From NCBI GenBank assembly GCA_003152075.1, contig PLZG01000030.1, positions 1-55,305 on the forward strand: 55,305 nucleotides of DNA, in the 5' to 3' direction. Below, one piece after another: positions 2,917 to 55,305 of the stretch. A program made the position numbers and the translations under genes. The notes beneath the pieces were generated by a model that was given only the letters and a program-made list of their open reading frames with translations, was not told where the DNA came from and did not search any database. Numbering within the stretch: the first letter of the stretch is position 1; each line of letters starts with the position of its first letter. The DNA comes from a candidate division FCPU426 bacterium. Its GTDB lineage: Bacteria; Oederibacteriota; Muellerivitia; Muellerivitales; Muellerivitaceae.

Positions 2917-5205
2917 TTAGTTCTGAATCAACAACTTCGTGATCTGTCGTTGCATAGCACCCGCCGAATCATAAATCTCGATAACCGCCAAATACATCCC
3001 ACTCGCCAAGCTTAAGCCCGAGAGGTCCCAAGTGAGTTGACTGGTCCCGGCTTGGCCTTCTTTTCGTTGGACTAATTCCCCCGCGAGCGTGTAGATGTTT
3101 ACTTTTAGCGTAACCGGCGGGTTGGCATTGGCCATGAAATTAACCTGGGTACCGTTTGCCCTCACGTGGAAAGGGTTGGGATATACCAATACCTGGCCAT
3201 TCGGCAGGGTCAGCTCTGGCTGCGTGACATTGATTGTCTTCGTCACGGTCGAATTTCCCCCCTGCTGGTCCTCCGTCATGATTTCGATGAAATACTGGCC
3301 ATTGAGGACGATCTTCCCGCTATCGTTGCGTCCATCCCAAGTGACCCCTGACCCATCGGCCAAGGTGATGGAGGTCGTCGAAGTGGCGCCGCCCTGGTAA
3401 TTGGGGGCTATGGTGGGGTTGGAAACAGTCACGTTGTCGTTTAAAGTCACCGCGTCGGAAACGACCTGGTCCAAATGCCGGATTATTTCCCCGGCTTCGT
3501 TGTAAATACTCAGTGTGATACGGATCAATTTCCTGTCGACCACGACATCCTGGATTATTGAATCGATGGATCCTGAATAATCGATGTTTTCGATCTTAAT
3601 GTGGTAATTGCCGTTGGAAACCTCTTCCCCGTATTTGTTGGTCCCATCCCATGTGCCAATGGTCATATTCGAATTGACAAGGTTGATCTTATCCTTAATG
3701 GACACGAGAGTGCTGCTTTCAATGGTCACGGTGCGAATAGGCCGGGGAAAATATTGCATCGCGAGGATCGTCTTCACAATCTCCTTGGATTTTTTATAGA
3801 CGTTGATTTGGACCATGAAATTGCCTTTTACCGTGACCGGGGCCTGGACAACCTGGGGTATGGGATTTCCAAGAAAATTCATCGCCGCCTGGTTATTGAT
3901 AACCGTTCCATCCGGAGTGAGCCCGTTCACGTTGGCCGTATAGGTGACGCCGTAATTACCCGGGGCCACCGGGGGGAAACTCCAAACCAGGAGCGTCCCG
4001 TTGCCCGGGGCGGAGAGGAGGCCCGGGGTTGGCCCAAGAATGGTTGATAATGTGGTTCCCGGCGGGCTGGGTGAACCGATCGAGGCGATGTATTTCAAAC
4101 CCGCTGGAACCGTATCCGTGACGATGATATTGGAAGCCGTGCTGGAAAACACATTGAGGCCGATGATATAGGTCAAGGTCTCGTTGGATTCGGGCGCCGT
4201 ATCCGAAACGGTCTTATGGATATTCACAAAAACGACGGTCGTGGGAGTAGGGGTCGGCGTGACAGTTGGCGTGGATGTCGGCGAATTGGTCGGGCTGTTC
4301 GTGGGGGTAGGGGTCTTCGTGGGCGTATAAGTCGGCGTATTGCATTTGACTGGGATGATCTCGAGGGCTTCCATGGCCGCCGTGTGGGCGGTCCCCGCCG
4401 TATAGCTCATCGTGTATGGCCCGGCCACCGTGGTGGCCAATTCATCGCCCTCGCTCCAACCCATGCGCCCGTGAATGAGGTTTCCGATGCCTTTACTCCA
4501 ATTCCGGCGGATGCCTTTTCCTGCGGTCGCGCCGTTGTCCCCTTCCAACCATCTTGGGGTTTGCCCCTCCCCCGAAGTGACCCCTTCCGTGTTGTTGGCG
4601 GCGAACATTTCCGCTATGAGGCTATTGGCTTGGGTCGTGGTCAACGTGATACTGTGGAAAATATTTGCGGCTTGATGGTTAACTGTGGTCATCGCCCCTA
4701 TAGGCGTGGTCTGGTCCACTCCCTGGTAACTAACGGCCCCCACGTGCAAAAACCTCGCTTTTGTGTCGTTAATAGTGACAATGACGTCATTCGTGCCGGG
4801 GGTTGGATTTACCAGGTACCAGGTCTCCAGGGAACCGAGGCCGCCCCGGGCGTCCTGAATGGCCATAGCCATGACCATCGTCTCCCCGGCGTAAGTCGCC
4901 GTCTTGACCGTATCGGTGGCTCCGTTCGCCTGGATGTACACCTGGACTAACAGGAAGGTTTTTGTCCCGCTGACCGTATGGGAAAAGGTTACGCCCGTGG
5001 CTTTGACTGGTTTGGTGGAGATGGCTGAGGCGGAGTCAAAAGCAATGGCGCAGGCGGCATCCGCCTGAACCGGAAGGGTTCCCCAAAAAAGCAGGCTCAA
5101 AATCCCGGTAAGACTTCGGATTCCCAAGGAAGGGTTAATCAGTTGGAAACATCGACGTGGTTTCACTTGAACGGCTACCCCGGAGCGTAAAAAGGTCTGT
5201 CTCAT
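2917..5205 (-). CDS. large secreted multidomain protein with DUF11, FlgD-like repeats and type-A-like C-terminal domain
   Basis: This 762-residue exported protein has, in order: a signal segment (to about residue 50, LLFWGTLPVQADA); an unrecognised beta domain (about 52-285); a Thr-Pro linker (about 290-325); a DUF11-type repeat (about 328-440, VNIHKTVSDTAPESNETLTY); two FlgD Ig-like modules (about 460-655, each with WDGTN or WDGRN); and a C-terminal domain from about residue 672 (VYPNPFHV, then LASGMYLAVIEI) like type IX secretion or FlgD sorting modules. Such modules usually mark cell-surface proteins. The ATG at 5205 has no clear ribosome-binding site but lies about 30 nt after the predicted P2 start. 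The ligand is unknown. Confidence 0.85.
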   Translation of the reverse strand: MRQTFLRSGVAVQVKPRRCFQLINPSLGIRSLTGILSLLFWGTLPVQADAACAIAFDSASAISTKPVKATGVTFSHTVSGTKTFLLVQVYIQANGATDTVKTATYAGETMVMAMAIQDARGGLGSLETWYLVNPTPGTNDVIVTINDTKARFLHVGAVSYQGVDQTTPIGAMTTVNHQAANIFHSITLTTTQANSLIAEMFAANNTEGVTSGEGQTPRWLEGDNGATAGKGIRRNWSKGIGNLIHGRMGWSEGDELATTVAGPYTMSYTAGTAHTAAMEALEIIPVKCNTPTYTPTKTPTPTNSPTNSPTSTPTVTPTPTPTTVVFVNIHKTVSDTAPESNETLTYIIGLNVFSSTASNIIVTDTVPAGLKYIASIGSPSPPGTTLSTILGPTPGLLSAPGNGTLLVWSFPPVAPGNYGVTYTANVNGLTPDGTVINNQAAMNFLGNPIPQVVQAPVTVKGNFMVQINVYKKSKEIVKTILAMQYFPRPIRTVTIESSTLVSIKDKINLVNSNMTIGTWDGTNKYGEEVSNGNYHIKIENIDYSGSIDSIIQDVVVDRKLIRITLSIYNEAGEIIRHLDQVVSDAVTLNDNVTVSNPTIAPNYQGGATSTTSITLADGSGVTWDGRNDSGKIVLNGQYFIEIMTEDQQGGNSTVTKTINVTQPELTLPNGQVLVYPNPFHVRANGTQVNFMANANPPVTLKVNIYTLAGELVQRKEGQAGTSQLTWDLSGLSLASGMYLAVIEIYDSAGAMQRQITKLLIQN

Positions 5206-5401: not shown

Positions 5402-6286
5402 TTACGGTTTGGTGATGGTATTGGACAACATCGTCACATTAGCATTCTCCGCCAAGGCCCTGCCTTCCAGCACGGCGCCCGTATTGATGGTGACCGCGGT
5501 GAAAGCCATGATGTTACCCTTGAACGAAACTCCCGTGCCCAGGGAGCAATAACCGGTCACTTGCCAAAAAATATTGGCGGCTTTCGCCCCATTGGCCAGG
5601 ATGACCTTGCGGTTGGTCGTTGCGTCAAGAACGCCGTTGACCTGGAAGATAAAGACGGCGTTCTGGTTTCCCTTGGCATCCAAGGTGAGGTCACCCGATG
5701 ACACCGAAAGATTGCCCATGTCCGTATAGAGACCGGGATAAAGGGTTTGGCCCCCGATATCCGCGTTGGCGGGCAAAAGGGTGCCCCCGGTGCGACTGGC
5801 GGCGTCGGTATAAGCCGTACCCAAATCCAGTTCAGCGGTATTCGCGGCGGCATTGGCTAAATCCGTGGTCCCTCCACAGGCTACCACGGGCGCTCCAGTG
5901 ACCGAAGTTCCCGGAAACAACCCAAGGCTTCCGCAAAGCGTGGTAAGTCCGGAGTTGGTGATCGCGGAATAAGCCAGGACCACGTAATTCGCGGCGGATC
6001 CAAGGTTAACCATGGCTTGAGTGCCTGGGGGCGCCGGGATGACTGTCGCGTTCGGCGTGGGCGTATTGGAATGATGCTTCCAATCACTATCGTTATCATG
6101 CTTCCAATCATTACCGTTTTTGTCCTTCCCTTTTGCATCGGCGTTTTTGTTGAAGCCGTCCTGGCCCCCGCCGTCATCTTCATTCACTTCGGTATTCCCA
6201 AATGAGGAATCGGCCCTTTCGGCCATGACCATCCCCGTGGCTGACAAAAACAATAAACCCATCACTACCGCTAATAAACTCTTCAT
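5402..6286 (-). CDS. secreted DUF3494 (ice-binding-like) protein with charged Asp/Lys/His linker, 294 aa
   Basis: A cleavable signal peptide (MKSLLAVVMGLLFLSATGMVMA) is followed by a hydrophilic segment of about 65 residues rich in Asp, Gly, Lys and Asn with a repeated DWKH motif. A short Pro-rich piece and a C-terminal DUF3494 domain follow (NLGSAANYVVLAYSAITN, CGSLGLFPGT, GDLTLDAKGNQNAVFIFQV, NIFWQVTGYC). The charged linker replaces the Thr-Pro stalk of the paralogues and could bind cations; that is inference. The ATG at 6286 has AAGGAGA at good spacing. Its own terminator follows, so it is monocistronic. DUF3494 domains are beta-helices known to bind ice or act in adhesion; no ligand can be assigned here. 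Confidence 0.9.
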   Translation of the reverse strand: MKSLLAVVMGLLFLSATGMVMAERADSSFGNTEVNEDDGGGQDGFNKNADAKGKDKNGNDWKHDNDSDWKHHSNTPTPNATVIPAPPGTQAMVNLGSAANYVVLAYSAITNSGLTTLCGSLGLFPGTSVTGAPVVACGGTTDLANAAANTAELDLGTAYTDAASRTGGTLLPANADIGGQTLYPGLYTDMGNLSVSSGDLTLDAKGNQNAVFIFQVNGVLDATTNRKVILANGAKAANIFWQVTGYCSLGTGVSFKGNIMAFTAVTINTGAVLEGRALAENANVTMLSNTITKP

Positions 6287-9065: not shown

Positions 9066-10421
9066 TTAGTCCCGACCGGGCCTCGGTTGGATGATCTTGA
9101 TTTCCACCCGGCGGTTGGGGGCCAATTGGGCCTCCGTCATACCGAGGACAATAGGGTCGTCATCGCCTCTTCCTAATGTAAGGACTTGCCAACCGGGTAC
9201 GCCGCGGGAAAGGAGATGAGTCCTCGTGGCCTCAGCCCGGGCCTCGGATAATCCTTGGTTGTGCGCTTCCGTCCCCTCTTCCGAGGCAAAACCCGACAAA
9301 ACAACGTGGTCCTGGGGACGGCTCAGCAGGTCGTCTCCCAATTCGTCCAACTCCTGGGTGAATTCCGGAGTCAGGTCGGCCTTGTCAAACGCGAATTGGA
9401 TATTCTTGTTAATTTTTTCCAATAACTTCACGACCGGACTCGGGAGTGGCGGCGGGGGAGCCGGTTTGTCCAATTTTATTAGGAGCGAAATCAGGTTGCT
9501 ATTTCCCACATATCCATTACTCATGAAGGCGTAATTCAGTTGGAACGCTCCAATATTGACCCCCGCGCCGAAGGTCAAGCCATTAACATCCGATCCCAAT
9601 TTATTTTCCGAAATCTGGTCTCCCGCTCGCAAGGCGAAGGTCCCCCGGTACCAATACTCGAAGCCCACCGAGCCGGCAATCGCCTTGGCTTGGCCCAGGG
9701 GGAAATCGGCGTCCACGGCCACGTTGAAGGCGTGCAGCCGGTTGACGATGGTGTCTGTTTTAAAAGCCAGGGCCGCTTTCAGGACCGTCGGCAGGTTCAT
9801 CCCTTGAAGCTGGGCCCCGACATTTTCAACAGCCACGCCTAAGGACAAATGCGGGATGATCCCATGCGCCATCAGCCCAGCGTCAACGCCCACTCCGCTT
9901 CCTATGGTACCCCCGATATTTTGTTGGAAATATTTGGCCGCCAACCCCACGTCTATTTTACGGCCCAAGGCTATGCCATAACCCAAACCCATATTGAATC
10001 CATTCGGGTTGAAGGTTCCGTTGGGAACCGGGGCGCCGTTTACAATCGTGTAAGAGTCAACGGTCCCCAAGCTCAAATAATCGAAACTCAAACCCAGCCC
10101 GCTGATCTCACCTAGCGGAATCCCGGCGGATAGATGCTCGACCGCCACGCCTTGAAACCAATTGTTATGGGTCAGCAAAAGCTGGGGACTGTCGATTTGG
10201 ACCAATCCGGCGGGGTTCAATTTAAAGGTGCTGATGTCTTCCCCCATGGCGCCGAAGGCGCCGCCCATACCCGCGGCACGGGCGCTATCGGGAAACTTGA
10301 GCCAGGGCGCGGCTTCCTGGGACGCGCTTTGGTTGGTTTGGTCGGCCCGAAGGGTCAGGGGTCCTAAGGCCATCAGGAAAAAGAAAGTGAGGCTGATTTT
10401 TCGAAAGGAGAAATTTTTCAT
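9066..10421 (-). CDS. PorV/PorQ-like outer-membrane barrel fused to an OmpA peptidoglycan-binding domain
   Basis: A signal peptide (MKNFSFRKISLTFFFLMALGPLTLRA) is followed by a PorV/PorQ (UPF0164-like) barrel opening (SARAAGMGGAFGAMGEDIS, then NPAGL). After a Pro-rich hinge (PAPPPPLPSP) comes an OmpA-like domain (IQFAFDKADLTPEF, HVVLSGFASEEGTEAHNQGLSEARAEA, ending NRRVEIKI). PorV-type barrels in Bacteroidota carry type IX secretion substrates; OmpA domains bind peptidoglycan. The ATG at 10421 overlaps the stop of the upstream DUF3494/C-terminal-domain gene (ATGA), so the two are translationally coupled. This start is more plausible than one 35 codons upstream, because the signal peptide begins here. 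The protein is 451 residues. Confidence 0.9.
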   Translation of the reverse strand: MKNFSFRKISLTFFFLMALGPLTLRADQTNQSASQEAAPWLKFPDSARAAGMGGAFGAMGEDISTFKLNPAGLVQIDSPQLLLTHNNWFQGVAVEHLSAGIPLGEISGLGLSFDYLSLGTVDSYTIVNGAPVPNGTFNPNGFNMGLGYGIALGRKIDVGLAAKYFQQNIGGTIGSGVGVDAGLMAHGIIPHLSLGVAVENVGAQLQGMNLPTVLKAALAFKTDTIVNRLHAFNVAVDADFPLGQAKAIAGSVGFEYWYRGTFALRAGDQISENKLGSDVNGLTFGAGVNIGAFQLNYAFMSNGYVGNSNLISLLIKLDKPAPPPPLPSPVVKLLEKINKNIQFAFDKADLTPEFTQELDELGDDLLSRPQDHVVLSGFASEEGTEAHNQGLSEARAEATRTHLLSRGVPGWQVLTLGRGDDDPIVLGMTEAQLAPNRRVEIKIIQPRPGRD

Positions 10422-11581
10422 GGTATCACCACCGCCTTGCGCGTAATTTGAATATTGGTCCCGTCCAAATAATTGATTTTGATTCGGACGAAATAAATTC
10501 CTGGGGCGACTCCTGTGGAGTCCCAATAGTGGTTACTGGTCCCGGTGAAAGAAAGGGTAGCGACACTTTCCCCGGCCACGTTGACGATTTCCCATTGGGT
10601 CGCCTTAGGCGGCTTATCAAAAAATAGGATGACTCGGTCACCCCGGTGGGCGGGGACAGGCGCCAACACCAATTGACCCGCTAATGAGCCCGATCCCGTG
10701 GAAGTGAAGACGGGCGCCCCCAGACCGCCGGATTGGCCTTGCAAAACAACCTGGCCGTTCCGGGCCAAAGCCTGTCCCGAGAAGCTCGCTCCAGTGAAAA
10801 AGTTGATGTCGGTGAGGGCCAGGATCGTTCCCTTGAAATCAGCGCCGGCGTTGATCGTGGCTGAACTGCCGATCTGCCAAAATACATTGGAAGCTTGGGC
10901 CCCGCCGATCAATATCACCTTCCGGCTGGTTGCGACGGTAAGGCCGGTTCCCGCCTGGAAAATGAAAACGGCGTTGGGACTGCCTTGGCCGTCCAGGGTC
11001 AGATCGCCCGTTGAGATAAGAAAGCCCGTGGCTGAGTTATAAACCCCCGGATAGAGGGTGATTCCCCCCAACTGGGGAAGTTGGGTGACGCCTAACCGAC
11101 CCGCCGCGTTGTTGTAAGCTGCGATCAAATCCACTTGGGCGGCCGCGGCGGCGCTATCGGCGATATGAAATATCCCTCCACAGCTCAACACGGGTCCTCC
11201 CGTCACGGCTGTTCCCGGGGATAAACCCAGGTCCCCGCAAAGTGTGGTGGAACCTGTGTTGGTGACCGTGGTACCGGCCAAAACCGCATAAGAAGCCGCC
11301 GATCCAAGCGGAACCGGCCCTTGCGCGGGTTGGGGCGTTGGGGTTTGGGTGATGGTAGGCGTTATCGTCACAGTGGGGCTATTGCTGGGAGTATTAGTGG
11401 GTGAATTAGTTGGAGTGTCGGTTGGGGTATTTGTCTGTGCCAACCCTTGCGACGGAAATATCCAAAGGGAACCCAACAGAAGCCCCAAAACAATAAAAGT
11501 CGAGCGAGAACAATTAGGCCAAGATGGCTTTATGACGCGGTATCGCGGGACGGAATTTATAAAAAATTTCTTTTTTTTCAT
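10418..11581 (-). CDS. secreted DUF3494 protein with Thr-Pro linker and type-A-like C-terminal domain, 387 aa
   Basis: The order is: signal segment (STFIVLGLLLGSLWIFPSQGLAQ), short Thr-Pro linker ([20 protein letters not shown]), DUF3494 domain (LGSAASYAVLAGTTVTN, CGDLGLSPGTAV, GDLTLDGQGSPNAVFIFQ, NVFWQIG), and a C-terminal FlgD/type-IX-like module (LVLAPVPAHRGDRVILFF, then GVAPGIYFVRIKI). The last module suggests surface delivery, and the gene is translationally coupled to the PorV-OmpA gene that follows. The ATG at 11581 has AAGGAG at good distance; an in-frame ATG 34 codons upstream overlaps the previous gene and is unlikely. The DUF3494 ligand is unknown. Confidence 0.9.
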   Translation of the reverse strand: MKKKKFFINSVPRYRVIKPSWPNCSRSTFIVLGLLLGSLWIFPSQGLAQTNTPTDTPTNSPTNTPSNSPTVTITPTITQTPTPQPAQGPVPLGSAASYAVLAGTTVTNTGSTTLCGDLGLSPGTAVTGGPVLSCGGIFHIADSAAAAAQVDLIAAYNNAAGRLGVTQLPQLGGITLYPGVYNSATGFLISTGDLTLDGQGSPNAVFIFQAGTGLTVATSRKVILIGGAQASNVFWQIGSSATINAGADFKGTILALTDINFFTGASFSGQALARNGQVVLQGQSGGLGAPVFTSTGSGSLAGQLVLAPVPAHRGDRVILFFDKPPKATQWEIVNVAGESVATLSFTGTSNHYWDSTGVAPGIYFVRIKINYLDGTNIQITRKAVVIP

Positions 11582-12493: not shown

Positions 12494-15019
12494 TTAGGGA
12501 TTGGTGATGTTATTGGTATCGAGCGTCACAGCGGCGACATGCGCCAAGGCTCGGCCCAGTAACGTGGCGCCAAGGTCAAAAGTGATTGACTGGTCGGCCA
12601 TGATTATTCCCACCATTGATGCGTCCGGCCCAATGGTGCAGCTGGTGCCCACCTGCCAAAAAACGTTGATGGCTTTCGCCGTCCCCGCCAAAATTACAGT
12701 TCCGGAGTTGATATTAAGAGCGCTTCCGACCTGGAAAATGAAGGCGGGATTTGGGTCTGTTCCGCCATCCAAGGTGACATTACCGTTTAACGCAAGCGTT
12801 CCGCCTGGCGAGGTTTGATAAAGGCCTGGGGAAAGTGTTAGGCCTGTCAAATCGCTTTCAACCGTTGTGGGGCCTGACCGGCTTAGGGCGTCATTATAAG
12901 CGGTGGTCAAATCCAATTGAGCTTGTGTGGCAGCGGAATTATTTACGTCCGAAACCCCACCACAACTCACAATTGGCGATCCTGTTACTGCGGTTCCCGG
13001 AGCCAACCCAAGACCTCCACAAAGTATGCTAGTTCCCGTGTTGGTAATGGTAGAGCCGGCCAAGACTACGTAATTCCCCGCTGTCCCGAGATTAATAATG
13101 GGGGTGTTGGTTGGAGTGTCTGTAGGGGTGTTAGTAGGCGTGTCGGTCGTTGTAACCGTTGGAGTATCCGTAGGTGAATCTGTCGGTGTATTAGAAGGTG
13201 TGCCGGTCGGGCTATCCGTCGGAGTACTAGTGGATGTATCAGTAGTTGTATTCGTTGGGGTACCAGTTGGCGTATCGGTTGGAGTAGTAGTTGGAGTATC
13301 CGTAAGTGTGTCAGTGGGCGAGTCAGCGGGTGTTTGAGTGGGTGTGTCCGTCAGCGTATTGGTTAAAGTGGCTGTAGGTGTGTTCGTCTGGGTGGCTGTT
13401 GGTGTATCTGTAGGCGTATTCGTCGGAGTTTCAGAAGCTGTGTTAGTTGGTTTGTCAGTGGGAGTATCGGTAAGTGTTCTCGTCGGGGTATTGGTTGGTG
13501 TCGCGGTGGGTGTATTGGTTAGTGTATCAGATGGAGTGTTCGTTAGGGTGTCAGAAGCTGTATTCGTCGGAGTTTCAGAAGATGTGTTAGTTGGTGTGTC
13601 GGTGGGAGTATCGGTCAGTGTGCTCGTCGGGGTATTGGTTGGTGTCGCGGTAGGTGTATTGGTTAGCGTATCAGATGGAGTGCTCGTTAAGGTATCAGAA
13701 GCTGTATTCGTCGGAGTATTAGAAGCTGTGTTAGTTGGTGTATCAGTGGGAGTATCGGTCAGTGTCCTCGTCGGGGTATTGGTTGGTGTCGCGGTGGGTG
13801 TATTGGTTAGCGTATCAGATGGAGTGTTCGTTAAGGTGTCAGAAGCTGTATTTGTCGGAGTTTCAGAAGAAGTGTTAGTTGGTGTTTCGGTTGGCGTATC
13901 GGTCAGTGTTCTCGTCGGGGTATTGGTTAGTGTCGCGGTAGGTGTATTAGTTGGCGTATTCGTCGGCGTGGTTGTTGGTGTATCGGTGGGCGTATTCATT
14001 GGTGTCGCAGTAGATGTATCAGTCAGGGTGTTAGTGGGTGTATCGGCTGGTGTATCCGTGGATGTGTCGGTCGGCGTATTCGTGGACGTTGCCGTTGGAG
14101 AATCGGTCGGAGTGTTTGTAAGCGAATCTGTTGGCGTGTTAGTCGGAGTATTTGTGGGTGTATTGGTTGGTGTTGGGGTAGGTGAGTCAGTGGGAGTGTT
14201 TGTTGGGGTATTGGAAGGTGTCTGAGTTGGCGTATTCGTAGAAGTAGCCGTTGATGTCGCGGTAGGTGTATCAGTCGGCGAATTTGTGCGCGAAGCAGTT
14301 GGAGTTTCGGTCGGAGTTTTGGTTAATGTATGAGTGGGAGTGTCAGTAAGCGTATTCGTTAGGGTGTTGGTAGGGGTTAGAGTGGGCGAATCCGTCGAAG
14401 TAGCGGTTGGTGTATTAGTAGGCGTTTTGGTAAGGGTAGGCGACGAAGTGTTCGTAGGAGTATCGGTCAGTGTATTCGTCGGTGTACTGGTGAGCGTGTT
14501 GGTTGGCGTTTGGGTGGAAGTGTTTGTTGATGTGTCCGTAGGGCTATTGGTCGACGTTGGCGTAGACGTGTTAGTCGGAGTTTCCGTGGACGTATTGGTT
14601 ATTGTGTTCATCGGCGAATTCGTGGCAGTGCTGGTGGGCGTGTTGGTAGGAGTTTTTGCGGGTGTATTAGTGGTCGTGTTAGTCCCCGTGGTCGTCACGG
14701 TCGAAGTTGGGGTCAAAGTTAGCGAAGGAGTTGGACTATTCGTAGGTGAGTTGGTAGGCGTGATCGTCGGGCTGTTCGTTGGAGCGTTTGTCGCTGTGAG
14801 GGTGGAGGTATAAGTCTGCATTGACAAGTGGGAACATGGTGTTAGGGTTGGATAAAATTTCAGTGAGTTTTTGATGGCGGAAATAATGCCGAAATTGAAA
14901 TCCGCGCGCAAATTTCCCGCGGACACAAAAAAGAATAAAATCGCCAAGGCGATAGAGCTTTGTTTTAACTTTTTCAGGATAAATTCTTTCTTAGAAGGGG
15001 TAAAAATACAGCCCCCCAT
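12494..15019 (-). CDS. secreted DUF3494 protein on a very long Thr-Pro repeat stalk, 841 aa
   Basis: A signal segment ([22 protein letters not shown]) is followed by about 570 residues of (T/S)xTP repeats (PTNTP, PTDTP, PTATP, SDTLT) and then a C-terminal DUF3494 domain ([58 protein letters not shown]). The likely design is a rigid, perhaps O-glycosylated stalk holding a beta-helix head off the cell. The stalk includes four copies of a 48-residue higher-order unit. The start is uncertain: the ATG at 15019 overlaps the upstream gene by 29 bp with a weak ribosome-binding site, and an alternative CTG lies at 14977. It shares promoter P5 with the barrel gene upstream. No membrane anchor or C-terminal sorting module is visible. 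Confidence 0.88.
13092..14820 (-). repeat. Thr-Pro coding repeat array with 144-bp higher-order units
   Basis: The DNA is a degenerate repeat whose basic coding unit is 4 residues (12 bp), often organised as 24 bp. Within it the marker CGTCGGGGTA recurs at 13481, 13625, 13769 and 13913, exactly 144 bp apart, so a 48-residue block was duplicated in tandem three times. Copies differ mostly by point changes. Confidence 0.9.
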
Positions 15020-15760: not shown

Positions 15761-18001
15761 TTATCGAAGAATCATCAGCTTAGCCGTTGCCTTTAATGTG
15801 GGCGTGGTAACGACGATGTAATAAACCCCATTGGATAACTGGCTTCCCCAGTCATCCATTAAGTCCATTTGGAAATCCGACGAGCTATTAAAGACCTGTA
15901 GGACTTTTACATGCTTCACGACTCGAAATGCTGTGGTGAACATCGTTATCTCAATCCTGCCTGCCGAAACATCAAAACCTAGATGAATCCGCACTGATCC
16001 ACAATTTGCCGGATTTGGATAGAGGACAACCAAGTGGCATGCCATCGGCATCGAGGTACTAGTGGGGGTGGGAGACAGCGTAGCTGTGCCGGTTGAAGTT
16101 GGGGATATTGTAGAAGTCGGCAAGGCTGTCGGGGTATGGCTTAGAGTGGACGTATAGGTAGGTGTATTCGTGTCTGTATTGGTTAATGTGTTCGTTGATG
16201 TATTTTGAGGCGTGTTAGAGGGTGTGTTAGTGGGTGAAGAGGTGGGTGTCCGAGTAGGCGTGGTAGTCGGTGAATTAGTGGGTGTTTGAGTGGGAGTTTT
16301 TGTCGGTGTAGCTGTTGTGGTATTGGTCTTAGTGCTAGTAGGTGTATCCGTTGGCGTGTTAGTTGGAGTATTGGTTGAACTCTTCGTGAGTGTTGCTGAA
16401 GGTGTGTCGGTAGGTGAATCAGAGGGTGTTTGAGTCGGCGTCTTCGTAGGCGAATCGGTGGGTGTGTTGGATGGTGTTTTCGTCGGCGTGTCCGTGAGAG
16501 TGTTAGTGGAAGTGTCCGTGGGGGTATTCGTCGGAGTTTCAGTAGGGGTATTGGTTGAAGTATTGGTGATTGTCGCTGAGGGTGTGTCAGTAGGTGAATC
16601 AGAAGGTGTCTGGGTAGGTGTGTCGGTAGGCGTGTTCGTCGGCGAATCAGTCGGGGTATTGCTGGAAGTATCGGTTGGACTATTCGTCGAAGTTTGTGTC
16701 GGAGTATTGGTTGAACTGCTGGTAGGTGTTGCTGAAGAGGTATCCGTAGGCGAGTCAGAGGGTGTCTGAGTTGGTGTATTGGTAGAAGTGTCAGTTGGAG
16801 AATTCGTCGGGGTTTGAGTCGGAGTATTGCTTGAAGTGTTTGTTGTTGTCGCTGAAAGTGTGTCCGTGGGCGAGTCAGAGGGTGTCTGAGTTGGCGTCTT
16901 GGTAGGCGTGTCTGTCGGTGTATTGGTGGAAGTGTCAGTTGGAGAATCCGTCGGGGTTTGAGTCGGAGTATTGCTTGAAGTGTTTGTTGTTGTCGCTGAA
17001 AGTGTGTCCGTGGGCGAGTCAGAGGGTGTCTGAGTTGGTGTCTTGGTAGGCGTGTCTGTCGGTGTGTCGGTGAAGGTGTTCGTAGGCGTATTCGTTGATG
17101 TCACCGTTTGTGTATCGGTTGGAGTATTAGTAGGCGTTTGAGTTGATGTGTCAGTCGGTGAATTAGTTGGTGTATCCGTTGGCGTGTCTGTCGGGGTATT
17201 CGTAGGCGTATTAGTGGGCGTATTCGCTGAGCTGACGGAATTGGTGATGATATTGGTATCAAGCGTCACCGCGCCAACCCGCGCCAAAGCGCGGCCTTCC
17301 AATAGGGCGCTGGTATCAAAGGTGATGGAGCCCTGGGCCATAATGATTCCCTTGAAGGCCGAAGAAACGCCAAGGGTGCAATCGCTGCCCACCTGCCAAA
17401 AAACGTTAGAGGCTTGGGCCCCGTTGATCAGGATGACCTGGCTGCTGGTCGACGTGGTAATGGCGGTCCCGACTTGGAAGATAAAGACCGCGGTCGAGTC
17501 TCCCTGAGCGTCCAGGGTAAGGGTGGTTGATATCCCAAGCGCGCTGGATATTTGATAGAGACCGGGAATAAGGGTTACGCCTCCCAAATCAGCGGGTTCC
17601 AAGATGGGGCTTAGCCTTCCCGCGGCGTCGTTATAGGCTAGGGTTAAGTCTCCTTGAGCGGTTGCCGCGGGGGCATTGCCGACGTTGGAAACAGCGCTGC
17701 AGAGGGAACTAAACATGATAGGGTTGGGTCCGCCCACAGAGGTCCCTGTCCATAACCCAAGATCACCGCAAATGGTGGTAGCTCCGGTGTTGGTGATTGT
17801 GGAACCGGCAAGGACCGCGTAAGTTCCGGCGGAACCAAGATTAACCGTCGGGGGACTTGCAGCCAAGGCTCGCGATGGGAAAATACAAAGGGAAATGAAA
17901 AGAAGTCCCAAAATGGATAAGTCGTGGCGCCGGCCGGCGCCAGCCAAGCTCCCGCTAGTCATCAAGTATCCGTACTGGTGTTTCAAAGTGGTTTTCCTCA
18001 T
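15761..18001 (-). CDS. secreted DUF3494 protein with long Thr-Pro stalk and type-A-like C-terminal domain, 746 aa
   Basis: The order is: hydrophobic export segment ([21 protein letters not shown]), DUF3494 domain ([48 protein letters not shown]), about 380 residues of Thr/Pro/Ser repeats, and a C-terminal FlgD/type-IX-like module ([17 protein letters not shown], then [13 protein letters not shown]). Here the DUF3494 head is N-terminal and the stalk leads to the C-terminal module, the reverse of the 12494-15019 protein. Before the export segment the frame encodes [16 protein letters not shown], which resembles the start of the oxidoreductase at 9034. The start is unsure: the ATG at 18001 has AAAGG directly adjacent. 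It follows the lipoprotein gene at 18114 by 112 bp and probably shares promoter P6. Confidence 0.86.
16050..17235 (-). repeat. Thr-Pro coding repeat array with 144- and 120-bp spacings
   Basis: The marker CGAGTCAGAG recurs at 16751, 16871 and 17015, spaced 120 and 144 bp, multiples of 24 bp (8 residues). The longer block, of 48 residues, has the same length as the higher-order unit in the stalk at 13481-13913. Confidence 0.85.
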
Positions 18002-18113
18002 CCTTTGACTGGAGCGAAGCCTTGCTCGACTGTTGGATTCCATAAGATTAAGCGGACCAAATCAGGAACCATTCCAAACCTGGTCCTCTTAAATAACTTA
18101 AAACCTAAATCCC

Positions 18114-54681: not shown

Positions 54682-55305
54682 TTAGTGAAAGACAGCGATT
54701 TTCCCGATTTGTTGGGCGGTATCGGTCCGAACCACATAAATATAAATTCCGCTCGCGACCGCTGATCCACCCTGGTTTTGGAGCTGCCACAGTAAACTGT
54801 TCAGGCCCACGCTACCTTGAAAAGAGGACTGATAAACTTGCTCACCCGTCAGGGTAAAGAGAGCCAAGTTGATTTGGGCAGGTCGTTCAAGTTTGGTGAG
54901 AAATTTAATCGGTTCCCCATTCCGGGAAATATTTGGTGCCGCTTGGGCCAAACCGGAAAATCTTGGAGTAGGCGTTGGCGTAACGGTTATGGTTGACGCG
55001 GAAGTCGGTGTAAAGCTGGGTGTTGGGGTTTTAGTAGCTCCCCCTTCCAGGTTGAGGGCTGAGACTTTCAGGGGCGCCTTGGACGATCCGCCGCCCGTGC
55101 CGCAGGGGGCGATTTGGGCGATCTGGTAGGGCAACGTGGGCGACCCGGCGTAAATGTTTGCTTGCGAATCCACCGCTACTCCCTGCGGGTTAAATCCTGT
55201 CGACATGCCACAAGGATGGTCGAGTATAAACAGTGAATCTGCCGCCCCTTGGGCTTTATATTCCACCACCGAATTAGTGCCCGTCGACGCCACATAAAGA
55301 TTCAA
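54682..55305 (-). CDS. secreted NHL-type protein with Thr-Pro linker and type-A-like C-terminal domain (5' end outside window)
   Basis: The visible 207 residues begin inside beta-propeller-like repeats (LYVASTGTNSVVEYKAQG, then GVAVDSQANIYAGS), pass through a Thr-Pro linker (TKTPTPSFTPTSAS) and end in a FlgD/type-IX-like domain (LALFTLTGEQVYQSSFQG, then ASGIYIYVVRTDT). The frame is open at the window edge, so the true start is beyond 55305. It joins the proteins at 2917, 10418 and 15761, which share this C-terminal module. No sigma-54 promoter can be judged because the start is outside. Confidence 0.85.
   Translation of the reverse strand: MNLYVASTGTNSVVEYKAQGAADSLFILDHPCGMSTGFNPQGVAVDSQANIYAGSPTLPYQIAQIAPCGTGGGSSKAPLKVSALNLEGGATKTPTPSFTPTSASTITVTPTPTPRFSGLAQAAPNISRNGEPIKFLTKLERPAQINLALFTLTGEQVYQSSFQGSVGLNSLLWQLQNQGGSAVASGIYIYVVRTDTAQQIGKIAVFH

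Follow-up and report, generated by a model that had tools for sequence, protein, structure and literature searches.

The DUF3494 protein described here and the outer-membrane barrel encoded just downstream of it are probably a secreted cargo and its dedicated PorV-type shuttle and anchor, working within a system that resembles the type IX secretion system (T9SS). The two genes lie in a stretch of 55,305 nucleotides (hereafter the window), corresponding to contig C75 in a draft genome of 4.10 Mb (99.97% complete) from FCPU426, a candidate phylum far from Bacteroidota that is also named Goldbacteria. The pairing of the genes, the membership of their products in the PorV and C-terminal sorting domain (CTD) families, the identity of an SprA homologue in the same genome and the co-diversification of barrels and CTDs are all evident from the sequences compared.

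The cargo and barrel genes of the window

The preliminary description of this locus, made from the DNA alone, proposed, for 9066-11581, a PorV-like barrel fused to OmpA, a barrel start overlapping the stop of the preceding gene, and a DUF3494 protein with a sorting-type C-terminus as the product of that gene. All three proposals were borne out. The barrel scores 153.5 bits against the NCBIfam PorV_fam model (NF033709; cut-off 90) and its tail 54.8 bits against Pfam OmpA (cut-off 27.2), while the DUF3494 passenger scores 188.5 bits against the Ice_binding/DUF3494 model, above the curated cut-off, and the CTD of the same protein 29.7 bits against TIGR04183, the T9SS type A sorting domain (cut-off 23). 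The ATG of the barrel at 10421 on the reverse strand shares four base pairs (ATGA) with the TGA stop of the DUF3494 gene (Table 1). A chance overlap of two unrelated genes is ruled out, since the arrangement recurs throughout the genome and across the clade. Four DUF3494 or DUF3494-type genes fall inside 13 kb of the window (5402-6286, 10418-11581, 12494-15019 and 15761-18043); those at 5402 and 12494 have no CTD at their end, and the latter carries a very long NTPT repeat stalk.

Table 1. Features of the cargo-barrel locus and of other CTD proteins in the window
Feature	Position	Strand	Model or evidence
Protein with FlgD_ig and DUF11 repeats and a CTD; orphan (no adjacent barrel)	2917..5205	-	TIGR04183
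PorV-family barrel with C-terminal OmpA domain; signal peptide; 451 aa	9066..10421	-	NF033709 153.5 bits; Pfam OmpA 54.8 bits
OmpA-like domain (residues about 335-447), with the DAP contacts Asn and Arg retained and Ser at the Asp position	9081..9419	-	
PorV/FadL-like barrel domain, residues about 24-318	9468..10352	-	NF033709 match and barrel strands in model
ATGA stop/start overlap of cargo and barrel genes	10418..10421	-	
Secreted DUF3494 (ice-binding-like) protein; signal peptide, NTPT-rich linker, C-terminal CTD; 387 aa	10418..11581	-	Ice_binding 188.5 bits; TIGR04183 29.7 bits
Type-A-like CTD, residues about 300-387; near-invariant C-terminal Lys (TRKAVVIP)	10421..10684	-	TIGR04183
DUF3494 passenger domain, residues 100-282	10736..11284	-	Ice_binding match
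DUF3494 protein with weaker CTD; orphan (no adjacent barrel)	15761..18043	-	
CTD protein truncated at the end of the window; orphan (no adjacent barrel seen)	54682..55305	-	TIGR04183

The window barrel falls above the cut-off within the PorV/PorQ family (NF033709) and UPF0164, from which it differs in being fused to OmpA and in reaching only 76 bits against the PorV equivalog model (cut-off 250). In a fold search with a protein model of moderate quality (mean pLDDT 56), the top two PDB matches are PorV chains of the T9SS translocon (8gl6_F and 6h3i_F), and FadL structures rank next. The PorV-family barrels carry OmpA, TPR or fn3 tails, or none. Two of these modules, OmpA and TPR, recur in PorE, which binds peptidoglycan and bridges PorP to it (PMC9143113); the window fusion looks like a shuttle and a wall anchor combined in one protein. 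Its OmpA domain keeps the DAP-binding Asn and Arg, with Ser at the position of Asp 576 in PorE. Of the peptidoglycan-binding OmpA domain proposed earlier, the domain identity and two of the three contact residues are thus seen; peptidoglycan binding is plausible on these residues, and because of the Ser substitution wall anchoring is something we only infer.

The CTDs of this lineage are related to the type A sorting domain, whose model is matched by 23 of 25 CTDs, whereas the type B model (TIGR04131) is matched by only one of the 25, and weakly. A Tyr is invariant in the CTD alignment and a Lys near the C-terminus is nearly so. In type A CTDs a Lys near the C-terminus contacts PorV (PMC10994853), and 84% of 50 CTDs retain this PorV-contacting residue. 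The CTD as a single query sequence gave no match in the PDB and a profile was needed; the profile built from the CTDs matches PorU, PorZ and translocon-bound CTDs, and also FlgD Ig domains. Kinship with the FlgD fold is real, FlgD chains scoring about as well as PorU against this profile, and together with the rank of FadL in the fold search it favours a reading in which the barrels serve for FadL-like uptake or as general porins, the CTDs are ordinary FlgD Ig folds kept in the mature protein, and the pairing reflects co-regulation only. We consider this very improbable: SprA is present, CTDs are restricted to SprA-bearing genomes among the 14 outgroups described below, the domains lie at the protein C-terminus with the C-terminal Lys kept, and nearly all of those scored match the T9SS model. 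Because the domains are C-terminal and co-occur with SprA, the possibility raised in the preliminary description that they are ordinary internal FlgD Ig folds is rejected as the main reading.

Pairing and co-diversification of barrels and sorting domains

Genome-wide counts, which rest on searches and on individually retrieved stretches of the genome, give at least 20 PorV-family barrels and 54 CTD matches at E 0.01. Of the best 20 barrels, 14 lie directly downstream of a CTD gene in the same orientation and a further one comes before such a gene; the window locus is one of about 15 cargo-carrier pairs in this genome. By chance we would expect about one in thirty per barrel, an estimate based on a total of some 3,500 genes, of which perhaps 60-100 encode CTDs. 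Fifty adjacent pairs were assembled from twelve genomes (49 distinct, C54 being counted twice), and in 19 of these 50 (49 distinct) the ATG of the barrel is placed exactly at a 4-bp overlap. The barrels of the relatives were chosen by similarity to the window barrel, which makes their pairing rate that of a biased sample. Co-occurrence across relatives, which the preliminary description suggested as a check, is seen for barrels and CTDs, which pair across the clade. The window fusion itself lacks a close orthologue within its genus (matches there are 29-34% identical).

Barrels and CTDs have diversified together. For 15 pairs from the window's own genome, the distances between barrels correlate with those between the adjacent CTDs (r=0.78; Mantel p=5e-5, the lowest value that 20,000 shuffles can give), and the 50 pairs (49 distinct) give r=0.81 (p=2e-4). 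The passengers of the pairs are diverse and include DUF3494, phosphoesterase, beta-propeller and malectin domains. A correlation driven by the passengers was ruled out by masking: r over the 50 pairs is still 0.74 when comparisons between homologous passengers are left out. The barrel follows the CTD and not the passenger, since the DUF3494 passengers on C75 and C93 are joined to CTDs of different classes and paired with barrels of different classes. Judged from these distances, co-diversification fits cognate recognition between barrel and CTD, and duplication of whole pairs can partly contribute to it.

The preliminary description also noted sorting-type ends on the proteins at 2917, 15761 and 54682. 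Those at 2917 and 54682 pass TIGR04183; that at 15761 fails this model but matches the same CTD profile. These CTDs resemble classes found almost only on unpaired proteins and, since the three proteins also have no barrel of their own, they probably use a shared shuttle. Comparison of the classes suggests that orphan CTDs probably use shared, conserved shuttles and paired CTDs their own barrel. Likely shared shuttles are an unpaired plain barrel (G000:C79:30325-31257), which is 60-79% identical across the family and order, and an unpaired barrel-FlgD-OmpA protein (G000:C70:57512-59230), with 67-80% identity within the family. The conserved plain barrel could be a generic PorV, and in Bacteroidota the type A CTDs all use one PorV (PMC12618676), so that every type-A-like CTD in these organisms might use a single PorV together with SprA, with the adjacent barrels acting as surface receptors or anchors after export and having no role in the choice or extraction of cargo. 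This is improbable in our judgement, as CTD classes closely track barrel classes and orphan CTDs fall in separate classes, neither of which would be expected if a single shuttle read every CTD. The PorV-based export or attachment route first suggested for the window proteins is thus well supported by SprA, by the pairing and by co-diversification, but the system is not the complete one of Bacteroidota and the three orphans named above have no barrel.

Pairs of a barrel-TPR protein and a CTD protein (L041, L045, L047 and L048; contigs C89, C111 and C110 of the same genome as the window) adjoin a gene for an ECF-type sigma factor. A short protein encoded beside them ends in a FlgD-like domain and is perhaps an anti-sigma factor. 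These neighbours suggest that the pairs are under the control of cell-surface signalling.

SprA and the search for a motor and a sortase

A search for further T9SS components, proposed in the preliminary description, recovered SprA but did not detect GldL, GldM or the PorU protease domain. The SprA homologue of this genome (1988 aa, contig C39) scores 203.3 bits against TIGR04189, just over the cut-off of 200. A phmmer search with the SprA sequence alone gave no match and profiles were needed: a profile built from 30 SprA sequences of the lineage matches the solved SprA of F. johnsoniae (6h3i_A) with E=2.9e-64. When a modelled 1186-residue segment of SprA from a close relative (L087) was used in a fold search, the top four matches were four SprA structures (E 6e-43 to 1e-30), the next match being at 6e-8. 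Profile and model comparison together identify the homologue as a genuine SprA translocon. A second, partial SprA-like stretch (G000:C8:15800-16741), a 401-aa frame 66% identical to residues 853-1181, may be a degenerate copy or come from a contaminating contig.

SprA was matched in the genomes of 46 of 59 relatives and, by named records, is also found in Firestonebacteria and many Elusimicrobiota. Among 14 genomes from outside the phylum, SprA is present in five and CTDs in exactly the same five, a coincidence that by our own arithmetic has a chance of 1 in 2002. These five genomes have 10-81 CTD matches and 3-15 PorV barrels each, and the remaining nine lack both, save for one weak barrel match. 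The Elusimicrobiota records with an SprA homologue number some 60, and others are labelled Sumerlaeota, Aerophobetes and Clostridia (L099-L163); the last labels may belong to misassigned drafts. Across 80 sprA loci (L035, L085-L163), divergent lptF/lptG genes flank sprA in 49, from FCPU426 to Elusimicrobiota, and a ComF-like gene lies beside it in 36.

GldL and GldM had no match in the window's own genome and are reported as not detected, the control genomes including no known carrier of either. GldL was over cut-off in none of the 59 relatives, 46 of which match SprA (the controls contained no known T9SS-positive genome), and the GldN search matched no genome at all, its control set likewise holding no known carrier. 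The PorU protease domain was not detected, the PorU model being matched only by its C-terminal CTD part (positions 961-1095). It is conceivable that a complete but very divergent T9SS is present and that its motor and sortase were missed by the models, which would alter the energy source and the final attachment and would be compatible with dedicated shuttles. The nature of the Gld controls, and an SprA that itself only just exceeds its cut-off, lend this some weight. We nevertheless regard it as unlikely, given the lack of GldL even among SprA-matching relatives, the restriction of the PorU match to the CTD part, and the gene neighbourhood of sprA, where no motor gene was found and the conserved neighbours are lptF/lptG and the ComF-like gene. 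The secretion system is present in part and is not a complete Bacteroidota T9SS; that no GldL/GldM motor to power export and no PorU protease domain was detected counts against the mechanism proposed below.

Proposed mechanism and relation to known systems

The transport, binding, surface exposure and wall attachment of the pair, like its energy source, are processes that we infer. The DUF3494 protein would reach the periplasm by Sec export through its signal peptide, and inside the SprA channel its CTD would be recognised by the product of the next gene, the barrel. Taking the cargo along, the barrel would then leave SprA laterally into the outer membrane, and by remaining bound would hold the cargo at the cell surface, while the periplasmic OmpA tail would tie the barrel to peptidoglycan. 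Translational coupling may ensure matched amounts of cargo and barrel.

This arrangement has the logic of the type B CTD/PorP pairs and the parts of the type A route, and the system is not a full member of the T9SS. Type B CTD proteins depend on an SprF-like shuttle whose gene comes directly after their own, and some operons of F. johnsoniae comprise a PorE homologue, a type B cargo and an SprF-like shuttle (PMC12618676). As in the type B CTD/PorP-SprF pairs, with PorE, of F. johnsoniae and P. gingivalis (PMC12618676, PMC9143113), the gene for the FCPU426 cargo has that of its own shuttle barrel immediately after it, the sequence classes suggest cognate specificity, and the shuttle is linked to an OmpA module, which in FCPU426 is a putative peptidoglycan binder. 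In contrast to the type B pairs, the FCPU426 barrel belongs to the PorV family and the CTD is a type A match, and the OmpA/TPR module is fused to the barrel whereas PorE is a separate lipoprotein. With the type A route of Bacteroidota (SprA-PorV-CTD; PMC10994853) the system shares an SprA homologue, a barrel of PorV fold and a type-A-like CTD with a near-invariant C-terminal Lys. It differs from this route in having many PorV-family barrels per genome, paired to cargo, in the lack of a detectable GldL/GldM motor or PorU sortase, and in its position outside the FCB group.

We tentatively extend these comparisons, with less confidence than we have in the role of the window pair, to a type-IX-like system without GldLM outside the FCB group (FCPU426/Goldbacteria, Firestonebacteria and Elusimicrobiota). 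FCPU426 and its relatives might use one dedicated PorV-type shuttle per type-A-like cargo class, with the fused OmpA, TPR or fn3 tail making the shuttle the final anchor in place of motor, sortase and lipid attachment. Reviews assign the T9SS to Bacteroidota and their FCB relatives, one of them stating that other phyla do not have it (PMC11285876). The literature searched, which comprised few subscription papers and no preprints, yielded no description of T9SS components from FCPU426 or Elusimicrobiota.

The finding extends the T9SS core of SprA, PorV barrels and sorting domains across another bacterial lineage, in which the motor is undetected and cargo-specific PorV barrels are many, and it raises the question of what powers export without GldLM. 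Such a system would help to separate the requirements of the translocon from additions made by gliding and lipid attachment, and it offers about 50 natural cargo-shuttle pairs from which the code of CTD-PorV recognition may be read.
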